DNA from: Bacillota bacterium
Lineage (GTDB): Bacteria > Bacillota > DSM-12270 > Thermacetogeniales > Thermacetogeniaceae
Assembly (NCBI GenBank): GCA_029907475.1
Contig: JARYLU010000003.1
Coordinates: forward strand, 62,001-126,000
Direction: 5' to 3'
Length of the DNA: 64,000 nt
The position numbers and the translations under genes were made by a program. The notes under the pieces were generated by a model. It did no database searches. It was given only the letters and a program-made list of their open reading frames with translations, and was not told the DNA's origin. Of the stretch, positions 14,867-47,441 are shown one piece after another. Numbering within the stretch: the first letter of the stretch is position 1; the number at the start of each line of letters is the position of its first letter.

Positions 14867-15183
14867 TTCCGCCAATTTCGAATTTCCCCCAGAACGTTCA
14901 TGGCATTTCCGGGTTCTGCCGCTTAGCTTCCTTATTTGCGGTAGCCTCCGCTTTTGCCATGGATATCTGCCGGCAAGCCCCTGCGCTTGATCCTGATCTC
15001 TTTGCACCGGTGTACATTTTGCCTGCTCTCGATGGCGTTCCGGACAACCTTTATTCCCTGTCTTAAAAATATGTCCCGATTTCCTTGCTCTTGTTCCCGG
15101 ACTCCGGTCGGTTGCCAGGCAAGCACTGTTTTTTGGCAGGATAATGGGAGGAGCGGGGCGTAATAATAGCGAGGGGTTTTGCG
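14867..15183 (+). repeat. Intergenic region with a partial copy of the dispersed repeat (copy A, 15058-15127)
   Basis: This 317-base gap has no gene. Bases 15058-15127 match the left flank and left core edge of the 19.3-kb repeat: a TTAAAAATATG segment, then CTTGC, then a 26-base block ending in TTGCCAGGCAAGCACT. After that the match stops. The remainder shows nothing recognisable apart from a ribosome site (GAGGGG) for the next gene. Confidence 0.6.
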
Positions 15184-19331: not shown

Positions 19332-19347
19332 GAGGCCGGAAGCCTCT

Positions 19348-19757
19348 GCCCTGAAAAATATGATCCAGGTCATCCTTGCGCTCGCTCCCGCTACTCCGGT
19401 CGGTTGCCAGGCAAGCACTTCCACTCGCTCCTGATTCCGCTCCGGACAGCACCACGGCTTGCTTCGGGAGTTCTAGGCTGCTGCGGAAAACCTCCGCAAC
19501 TTTATATCCATTTATTCCACGCTTTGAACCGGCGATTCGCCGTTACTTTATTTCGTTTTCGCCGTGTTGAAAGTCCTCGCAGCCTGAACTGTCAACCTCG
19601 CGGCGCCGGGGGCTGTTACCCGTCGCTCCATATGTCGCTTGTCAAGGCTTGCCTGGCTTAGTAGCGAGGGTAACAACTCCGTAAGGTCTTCGGGTGCAAA
19701 AGAAACCTTTTATTTCTCTCTTCTGATGGTGCCGCATGAGCGGCATAAAGGTCTAAG
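19348..19757 (+). repeat. Dispersed intergenic repeat, full copy B (core in orientation 1)
   Basis: The 448-base gap between cheW and the chemoreceptor is mostly this element. The left flank is 19348-19385 and ends in CCTTGCGCTCG. The core has an 11-base terminal inverted repeat, GCCAGGCAAGC (19406-19416) and GCTTGCCTGGC (19647-19657), plus CGCTACT/AGTAGCG. The right flank is 19685-19757 and contains GGTGCCGCATGAGCGGCA. It is homologous to copies at 47.0-47.4, 40.8, 42.3 and 15.1 kb. Open frames here are readings of the repeat, not genes. Confidence 0.85.
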
Positions 19758-40708: not shown

Positions 40709-40782
40709 GGAGAATATTGCATTTTCGGGCAGGAATCCCGGCAAAAACGGCGAATTACTCGCAATATTACTTGAAATTTGGA

Positions 40783-40917
40783 CTTAGACCTTCATGCCAC
40801 TCATGCGACACCATCAGAGGAAAGAAAAATAAAGGTTTACCTTGCGCCTGAAGACCTGGCACCGACCAGAATACGGGAGCAAGCGCAAGGATAAATCGAA
40901 ACATATTGTTCAGGGCA
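40783..40917 (-). repeat. Dispersed intergenic repeat, core-less copy C (reverse orientation)
   Basis: In the 258-base ywmB-murAA gap, reading the minus strand gives the left flank, then CCTTGCGC (complement of 40883-40890), a short loop with CTGG...CCAG, GCGCAAGG (complement of 40840-40847), and the right flank with the GCATGAG motif. Both flanks match copy B, but the roughly 290 bases of core are absent: GAAGACCT at 40850-40857 joins GGCACCGACC directly. Confidence 0.8.
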
Positions 40918-40966
40918 GAAGGTAAATCCCTGCTTTAAATCGGAATTCACAAAAAAAGTAGGAGAA

Positions 40967-42241
40967 ATGATGGAGGATAAGTTTTTAATCCAAGGTGGTA
41001 CCAGTCTGACCGGAGACATCCAGATTAGTGGTTCAAAAAATGCCAGCCTCCCGATCCTTGCCGCTACTCTCCTGACTCCCGACCGGTGTCTGATTTACGG
41101 GGTACCGCGTTTAGCCGATATCAGGATTATGATTCAGATGTTGAGCGGGCTTGGTGCCCAGATATCGATGCAGGGGCATCAGGTTGCGGTCCAGGCCCGC
41201 GAGTTGCAGATCACAGAGGAGCTTAACCAGCACGCCAGAAAAATGCGGGCATCTTTTTTGTTGATGGGCCCTCTCCTGGCCCGGCACGGTAAAGCCTGTT
41301 TAGCCCTCCCCGGGGGGTGCGCCATCGGAAAACGACCTGTTGATCTGCACCTTAAGGGTTTGGCCGCTTTAGGAGCAAAAATTACGATTGAAAAGGGATA
41401 TGTCAGGGCAACTGCCAGGCGTTTAACGGGCAGCGATATTTACCTTGAATTCCCCAGCGTTGGCGCCACGGAAAACCTTATGATGGCTGCCACCGGTGCG
41501 CGGGGAACGACAACCCTGCTTAATGCCGCGGCAGAGCCTGAAATTGTGGACCTGGCCTGTTTTTTAAAAAAACTGGGAGCAAAGATTACGGGGGCGGGAA
41601 CGAGGGTGGTAAAAATAGAGGGAAGCCGCTCTTTGCATGGCGCGGCTCATACGGTGATCCCGGACCGCATTGAGGCCGGGACTTACATGGTTGCAGCGGT
41701 CGCAACAGGAGGTCGGGTGCGACTGCTGAAGGTCATCCCCGCACACCTCCGTTCCGTGATCGCGAAGCTCCGCAAGACGGGAGCGGAGATCGAAAAGGGG
41801 AGAGACGAACTGCTTGTGGCTGCTACCTGTAAAAGTACTCCCTTGCAGATCAGAACCTCCCCGTATCCTGGTTTTCCGACAGACCTGCAACCGCAGTTTG
41901 CGGCCCTCCTGACCACAGTAACCGGTACGAGCAGGATCGTCGAAACAGTTTTCGAAGAACGATTCCTTTATACCGAGGAACTGCGCAGGATGGGGGCATC
42001 CATTGAAGTGTCCGGCCCAAAGGCTTTAATCCGGGGAGTGGAGCGCCTGTACCCGGCACAGGTGAAAGTGCCGGACCTCCGGGCGGGAGCGGCACTGGTG
42101 ATTGCTGCCTTAAAAGCCTGGGGAGAAACCGAGATTAACTGCGTTCATCACCTCGACCGGGGCTACGAGGGCATTGAGGAAAAACTGCGGGGTCTTGGAG
42201 CCCGGATCCGGCGGGTTACAGAGCAGGCCGCAAACCTCTAA
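40967..42241 (+). CDS. murAA: UDP-N-acetylglucosamine 1-carboxyvinyltransferase
   Basis: A 424-residue first committed enzyme of peptidoglycan synthesis, transferring enolpyruvate from PEP to UDP-GlcNAc. Catalytic Cys118 is in PGGCAIGKRPVDLH, so the enzyme should be fosfomycin-sensitive (family knowledge). SGSKNASLPILAATLL and PGFPTDLQPQ (catalytic Asp) are present. ATG at 40967 or 40970 follows AGGAG. The ywmB-murAA-spoIID order equals Bacillus; the second MurA seen near tal in Bacillus is absent here. Confidence 0.97.
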   Translation: MMEDKFLIQGGTSLTGDIQISGSKNASLPILAATLLTPDRCLIYGVPRLADIRIMIQMLSGLGAQISMQGHQVAVQARELQITEELNQHARKMRASFLLMGPLLARHGKACLALPGGCAIGKRPVDLHLKGLAALGAKITIEKGYVRATARRLTGSDIYLEFPSVGATENLMMAATGARGTTTLLNAAAEPEIVDLACFLKKLGAKITGAGTRVVKIEGSRSLHGAAHTVIPDRIEAGTYMVAAVATGGRVRLLKVIPAHLRSVIAKLRKTGAEIEKGRDELLVAATCKSTPLQIRTSPYPGFPTDLQPQFAALLTTVTGTSRIVETVFEERFLYTEELRRMGASIEVSGPKALIRGVERLYPAQVKVPDLRAGAALVIAALKAWGETEINCVHHLDRGYEGIEEKLRGLGARIRRVTEQAANL

Positions 42242-42709
42242 GGCAAGTCCTTCCGCTCGCTCCGGAAGATGGCGGTTTTGCGCTCACCCCTGGGCTGCGG
42301 TCGGTTGCCAGGCAAGCACTTCCACTCGCTCCTGATTCCGCTCCCAGCACTCACTGCTGCTTCGTGAGCCAAAAAAGATACAAAACGGAAAAAATTCCCC
42401 TTTTACGAAGTAAGTCCCCGCCTGGCACTCAACTTCACCTCAACAGCGGCTCCGAGCCGGTCTAATTGACCCCCGTTGCTCTTTAAAGTTTACCGGAGCG
42501 CTCTTTCCCCCCCTGCAAGAATAAACGCGGCGGCAAGAAAGTTAGCGTTCGAGCTCAAAAAATCGGGGGAACAGCTCCCCGGAAAAGATTCGAAAGGCGG
42601 ACCCTCGTATTTGTCGAGGTGATTTGGTCTAATCGTCTTCCCCGCTTCATAAATAGGGAAACAGGGAAGTAAATTCTCGCCTGTACGGGTAAGAACGGGG
42701 GAAGGATTT
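42242..42709 (+). repeat. Intergenic region with fragment D of the dispersed repeat (42279-42346)
   Basis: This 468-base gap contains no gene. Bases 42279-42346 match the left edge of copy B's core, from TTGCGCTC through TTGCCAGGCAAGCACTTCC to GATTCCGCTCC, and then diverge. Two local hairpins are visible: CTTCCG...CGGAAG near 42251-42268 and GGGGAACAGCTCCCC near 42567. No spoIID promoter could be read with confidence. Confidence 0.6.
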
Positions 42710-46815: not shown

Positions 46816-47035
46816 ACCGGCGCTGCAGGTTTTTCGTCAGGCCTGATAACGCCAAGATCAAAGCTAACCCGAAACAACGGAGGCGGACTGCTTGACAGAA
46901 GCCTCCCGGGCGCCGACCGAACGAGGTGCCCGAACAGCGTTTCACCTCATTCGCTTTTCAAAACCTACTTCTCTTTTTTGACGTGTTACACGGGCATACC
47001 CTTGTATTGCCTGTATTTCATGGCACTAACCTGCC

Positions 47036-47441
47036 ATGAAAAATACGATCCAGGTCATCCTTGCGCTCGAAGACCTTGCGTAGATTATTACCCTCGCTAC
47101 TAAGCCAGGCAAGCCTTCTGACAAGCGACATATGGAGCGACGGGTAACAGCACCCGGCGCCGCGAGGTTGACAGTTCAGGCTGCGAGGACTTTCAACACG
47201 GCGGAAACTGAAAGCAGTGGCGAAGCGCCGGTTCAAAGCGCGGCATAAATGGATATAAAGTTGCGGAGGTTTTCCGCAGCAGCCTAGAACTGTCCCGAAG
47301 CAAGCCGTGGTGCTGTCCGGAGCGGAATCAGGAGCGAGTGGAAGTGCTTGCCTGGCAACCTCCGCAAGGTCGCTGCGCCTGCAAGGATAAACCACTATTT
47401 TCATTCTTTCGGTGGTGCCGCCTGGGCGGCATGAGCGTCTG
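47036..47441 (+). repeat. Dispersed intergenic repeat, full copy E (core inverted relative to copy B)
   Basis: The left flank 47036-47069 matches copy B's left flank with two differences in 34 bases and in the same orientation. The right flank 47389-47441 matches copy B's right flank in the same orientation. Between them the core (GCCAGGCAAGC 47104-47114 to GCTTGCCTGGC 47346-47356) is the reverse complement of copy B's core. The rest of the 46816-47481 gap has a 10-base perfect hairpin (TTTCATGGCA...TGCCATGAAA, 47017-47042) and no gene. Confidence 0.85.

Follow-up and report, generated by a model that had tools for sequence, protein, structure and literature searches.

A probable decayed copy of a modular mobile repeat upstream of murAA in a Thermacetogenium-like bacterium

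The intergenic gap upstream of murAA (424 aa, 40967-42241, plus strand) in a Thermacetogenium-like genome (3.01 Mb, 114 contigs) contains a copy of an interspersed repeat that consists of both conserved repeat ends and hardly anything between them (40786-40918, minus strand). This raises the question whether the copy represents the original, empty form of the repeat or the remnant of a longer one. The window analysed is a stretch of 64,000 nt (contig C3:62001-126000), to which all coordinates given without a contig, genome, or locus refer. The copy is oriented away from murAA. Read on the minus strand, it begins with the left end (L), CTGCCCTGAACAATATGTTTCGATTTATCCTTGCGC (40918-40883; 92% match to the L consensus), followed by 35 nt, the GCGCAAGG arm (40847-40840), and a hairpin-bearing right flank terminating in GGTCT (40790-40786). 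The complete right end (R; 40786-40850, 88% match to the R consensus) comprises this arm, the tail hairpin TGTCGCATGAGTGGCA (40795-40810), and the terminal GGTCT. Split alignment to a full copy assigns the stretch between the ends (40855-40882) to a residue of the inner frame and the first bases of the left arm of the core (..GGTCGG-TGCCAGG). The dinucleotide CT borders the unit on both sides (40917-40918 and 40786-40787), in the form CT/GCCCTGAA...GGT/CT, which places the unit proper at 40788-40916 and corrects the span of 40783-40917 assigned in a preliminary description. The same description had recognised a core-less copy with both flanks, and the sequence is indeed as described. With the copy as query, 35 matches were obtained in the whole genome, with E-values down to 1e-20 for the right half and 2e-15 for the left half, so that the similarity of the flanks lies far above chance. 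The stem proposed there, CCTTGCGC/GCGCAAGG with the cap CTGGTCGGTGCCAG, folds as well.

The repeat occurs in about 40 copies in this 3.0-Mb genome; a full copy as query (19346-19756) gave 46 matches. All genomic copies were collected and classified by their core, as had been proposed. The resulting module map follows the order L end, frame (TCGCTCCCGGACTCCGGT), core, frame (GTAACAACCTCCGTAAGGTC), and R end with its GC-rich hairpin. Three materials are found at the core position: a long A1-D-A2 arrangement, module B, or T. Module B (~95 nt, CAGCACTCAC...GTGAGTGCTGG) either replaces D or is nested. Apart from the murAA copy, the window harbors a full copy that has a D-type core and precedes a chemoreceptor-like gene (19346-19757, plus strand), a full copy between two flagellar rod/hook-type genes, whose interior runs opposite to its ends (47031-47441, plus strand), and a truncated copy reduced to the L end and left arm (15058-15127, plus strand). 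Core fragments, i.e. two left arms and half of module B, lie without any L or R end directly 3' of murAA (42241-42390, plus strand), so that debris of the same family is present on both sides of this gene. An inverted interior is found in three copies of this genome (47031, L063, and L074), and partly in L078. In genus g3, about 20 copies combine an inverted interior with tail variants of their own, which marks them as an amplified subfamily. The same ends carry interchangeable palindromic cores, sometimes inverted. The same left end is present in the genomes of Clostridia bacterium isolates 25 and 27, Syntrophomonadaceae AS04akNAM_112, and Bacillota CSMAG_528.

Some further observations concern the surroundings and contents of these copies. 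The nested 95-nt module, with the ends CCCCGCACTCA/TGAGTGCGGGG or CAGCACTCAC/GTGAGTGCTGG, occurs at varying positions (L172, L238, L062, L067, and others), once substituting for the GGA loop in a T core, and has the appearance of a small mobile hairpin in its own right. A second repeat family shares the tail CTGCCCTGAAAATACATC and then differs (..ACCCGCCGGTCTACCGCTCGACTCC; right flanks of L130, L173, L187, L200, and L256); it often directly abuts an R end. One locus shows a match to SECIS_3, a selenocysteine insertion sequence (L067:637-695, minus strand), with 57.5 bits at a gathering score of 63.

How the murAA copy came to its position can be read from a same-genus relative (G001), which is collinear with the window at ~79% DNA identity. 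The BLAST blocks stop at 40779 and resume at 40916; in G001, the two blocks are separated by only 6 bp. Alignment of the flanks (TTGGACTT-AG-[element]-AG-AAGGTAAATCC versus TTGGGTT-CAG-GAGGTGGATCC in G001) reveals one AG/CT in the empty site and two in the filled one. This is the pattern of a precise insertion with target-site duplication, as expected of a MITE, and the duplication, which the preliminary description had suggested looking for, amounts to 2 bp (CT). The repeated CT may be a true target duplication or the element's own second CT. In nine further relatives, the murAA orthologues also lack the element (with some upstream regions rearranged); since it is absent there and in G001, a gain in this lineage is the parsimonious reading. 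As judged from these alignments, the element entered the gap between a ywmB-like gene and murAA once this lineage had diverged from G001, its closest sequenced relative. At the 47031 copy, the corresponding interval is ~418 bp shorter in G001. The expectation that the murAA copy would give the boundaries of the unit was thus borne out for the outer limits, by the orthologous empty site, and failed for the limits of the core.

The interior of the copy was shaped by a deletion. Relative to the best-fitting full copy, which has an A1-D-A2 core, split alignment yields a deletion of 275 nt, near the earlier estimate of about 290 bases. The junction reads CGGTGCC[AGG]TCTTCAGG, where AGG (40855-40857) is common to both sides and constitutes a microhomology. 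The copy keeps TGCCAG of the left arm of the core (GGTCGG-TGCCAGG) and lacks the frame bases GTAACAACCTCCG. The core was therefore lost through an imprecise deletion with AGG microhomology; of the clean core deletion considered before, the deletion holds and the cleanness does not. Other gutted copies in the genome show junctions at GC (104 nt), GC (178 nt), CG (150 nt), and TGCC (262 nt), and two have no microhomology. In the split alignments, the junction differs in every gutted copy of this genome. Among relatives, three sequences (L211, L249, and L220) have a shorter form with the junction CCGGT[TG]CGCC; two of them (L211 and L249) represent one orthologous locus with identical right flanks, while L220 is another locus. 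The varied junctions imply that copies have been gutted repeatedly, which palindromic DNA would lead one to expect, and slippage would be the cause.

These data bear directly on the opposite order of events, also put forward previously, in which the gutted copy would represent the ancestral, empty form, with the cores as later, MITE-like insertions. Such a scenario would readily account for cores found in both orientations between the same ends and for module B (~95 nt), which turns up nested at different positions, in the manner of an insertion. Nevertheless, an empty ancestor should neither possess bases of the core nor lack bases of the frame, and the murAA copy does both, at a unique junction with microhomology. 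In addition, the simplest full units in relatives all contain a core, and the distinct breakpoints among the gutted copies leave no common empty ancestor. We regard this order of events as extremely improbable. The murAA copy is best read as a decayed insertion, probably derived from a mobile repeat that is modular and non-autonomous.

Mobility of the family is further indicated by its ends. CT precedes 72 of 82 L ends and closes 65 of 70 R ends; otherwise, the bases just outside the copies are unconserved. Tandem units have one CT in common. Head-to-tail units with a single CT are also seen in the complete genome of Thermacetogenium phaeum (G006; 2,939,057 bp) at 65075-65383, 411347-411657, 553028-553196, and 865739-865845, which shows that short arrays exist in the DNA itself and do not stem from misassembly. 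This complete genome has 47 matches to the repeat. The unit as a whole has no terminal inverted repeats such as are typical of MITEs: L starts with GCCCTGAAAAT and the reverse complement of R with ACCACCACGCC, and the inverted repeats of the unit lie inside (TTATCCTTGC/GCAAGGATAA). A non-palindromic CT in fixed orientation, together with a hairpin at one end, suggests transposition of a single-strand type. Units would move by insertion at a CT, probably with the help of an enzyme acting in trans that recognises the tail together with the hairpin of the right end, and their palindromic interior would make copies prone to slippage deletion and inversion. Y1 transposases were considered as mobilisers and rejected, as the 30 Y1 loci of the class have no similarity to the repeat ends. 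The RAYT-like Y1 gene of this genome (234 aa, L318:1441-2145) stands between the arms of an inverted repeat of its own, GGGACACCATACTGAATTA / TAATTCGGTATGGTGTCCCC, which is unrelated to the murAA-type repeat. No autonomous element of the form L...gene...R was found among the collected loci, and neither the Y1 loci of the class nor longer L...R elements among the collected loci linked a mobilising enzyme to the repeat.

The location of the murAA copy also invites the view that the element is a cis-acting RNA leader, similar to a riboswitch, controlling the downstream gene, the more so as some copies (19346, 47031, and murAA) directly precede genes for motility or the cell wall. However, the orientation relative to neighboring genes is mixed across copies (14 opposite, 9 same, 7 convergent, and 6 divergent, based on rough gene calling), the murAA orthologues lack the element, and an Rfam scan of the window at gathering thresholds matched tRNAs only. 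This leaves a cis-acting leader very unlikely. As part of the same scan, the murAA copy gave no match to the TwoAYGGAY RNA (RF01731; gathering score 43 bits).

TwoAYGGAY is presented as a stand-alone candidate RNA (Rfam RF01731; PMC2864571). In the genome under study, the sole near-match by cmscan falls on the core of L072 (C8:67232-67388) with 39.3 bits, i.e. below 43. In relatives, the cores of the loci scanned with cmscan reach 46 bits, and many copies of their repeats score 43-56 bits (G004, G006, G011, G013, and G015), including units of 270 nt above the gathering score. A survey of the class found 7 of 20 genomes above this score, which had as many as 20 matches apiece (E-values up to 1e-4). 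Going by these model matches, TwoAYGGAY on the strand opposite to the L-to-R direction is shown as the usual core of the relatives, T. phaeum included. The same core is found in genus g7 and other families within quite different self-complementary outer helices, e.g. TTTATCCCTGC...GCAGGGATAAA. In a genome of family f31 (G049, L153-L156), the same terminator-like hairpin stands on both sides of TwoAYGGAY and differs per locus (e.g. GCACC..GGTGCC, GGGCCGTAAAAACGGCCC), as if whole terminators had been duplicated upon insertion. A description of TwoAYGGAY as part of a mobile repeat is absent from the passages covered by a limited check of PMC2864571, PMC4333381, PMC11701678, PMC3551663, and PMC4383904, and the 'repeat' passages of the T. 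phaeum genome paper do not describe these repeats.

The search for covariation proposed for this repeat detected it in the hairpins of the core, with a weak signal in the outer stem. In an alignment of 53 inner units, the stems of the two GGA hairpins vary on both sides (CG/GC/TA; GC/AT; GC/CG; TA/CG) with the GGA loops kept, and in the outer stem one pair is compensatory, from TA to CG, in three sequences. Comparison of the D core of this genus with that of T. phaeum and isolate 27, limited to ten sequences, likewise shows compensatory pairs and conserved GGA sites. Full copies have most of their GGA triplets on the TwoAYGGAY strand (8-14 versus 1-6). T-type copies place 2-4 GGA in hairpin loops, a number clearly above that of shuffled sequences in some copies only. 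The murAA copy has three GGA, none in a loop.

CsrA binding was proposed for TwoAYGGAY from the match of its motif to the CsrA site (PMC4333381). The gene csrA is present in 37 of 39 genomes with RF01731 compared with 250 of 360 without (Fisher p = 0.0003, phylogeny ignored), and by genus in 29 of 31 versus 167 of 240 (p = 0.002); the survey scored six candidates per genome only, and RF01731 is therefore under-called in these counts. This enrichment fits the published proposal, and two RF01731 genomes are without csrA. In relatives, the intact middle of the repeat is a known candidate RNA and would probably bind CsrA. Transcribed intact copies would form GGA-loop hairpins binding this protein, whereas the murAA copy, without GGA loops, would be inert except for a small stem in the murAA leader.

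A different meaning is given to the fold if the repeats are purely selfish palindromic DNA of the MITE or REP type, with TwoAYGGAY hairpins kept for transposition as ssDNA or dsDNA and not for an RNA function. The repeat is mobile and intergenic, interiors are inverted in many copies, the right-end hairpin sits at the terminus, and the strand test is balanced (4 GU versus 4 AC cells), all of which suit such DNA. Against it, the loops retain a CsrA-type sequence (AYGGAY, ACAGGAUGU) above stems that vary by compensatory changes, and the elements are enriched in csrA genomes; moreover, pairs with a GU majority are confined to the TwoAYGGAY strand (5 versus 0), which also has the lower consensus energy. 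Purely selfish DNA is a quite possible explanation, though less likely than not. A decayed copy of a mobile repeat whose intact relatives carry a candidate CsrA-binding RNA remains our reading for the murAA locus. Tentatively, and with more doubt than confidence, one may go further and suppose that mobile repeats, with T and D as at least two unrelated GGA-bearing core types between the same ends, disperse CsrA-binding RNA cores in Clostridia-related genomes, where transposition would tune the number and location of sites and deletions such as that of the murAA copy would switch sites off. A literature search for CsrA together with MITEs returned only an Rfam database paper.

The interest here lies in the family as a whole, a mobile and modular repeat with a candidate CsrA-binding RNA among its cores. 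A long-uncharacterised Rfam RNA is now placed inside a mobile, modular repeat, a context that may explain why TwoAYGGAY occurs in multiple copies without a consistent downstream gene. The CsrA hypothesis becomes directly testable in a cultured species, T. phaeum. Short relics such as the murAA copy are at risk of being misread as new RNAs or regulatory leaders.

Several known systems share features with this repeat. Compared with TwoAYGGAY RNA as such, the cores of relatives and a few copies of this genome match the whole model, with its two GGA hairpins, on the strand opposite to L-to-R; here, however, it is one of several exchangeable, often inverted cores in a mobile repeat of 270-460 nt, and the murAA copy is devoid of it. 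In architecture only, the repeat resembles the BOX elements of Streptococcus (boxA-boxB(n)-boxC; PMC3049150), which likewise have two constant ends, variable inner modules, and stem-loop folding, and are intergenic, high in copy number, and presumed to be non-autonomous mobile elements. Unlike in BOX elements, a known RNA family is found among the cores, which can face either way. With MITEs, Correia, and ERIC-type repeats, it has in common that it is short, non-coding, palindromic, and dispersed, with internal deletion derivatives. It differs from them in lacking inverted repeats at the outer ends of the unit, in bearing a hairpin at its right end, and in having a repeated CT that is non-palindromic and of fixed orientation. 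IS200/IS605 and REP-RAYT systems, which depend on a Y1 transposase, share the asymmetric ends, the right-end hairpin, the fixed short motif at the insertion site, and head-to-tail units with that motif in common, whereas the Y1 genes of the genomes studied here are not flanked by the ends of the present repeat.
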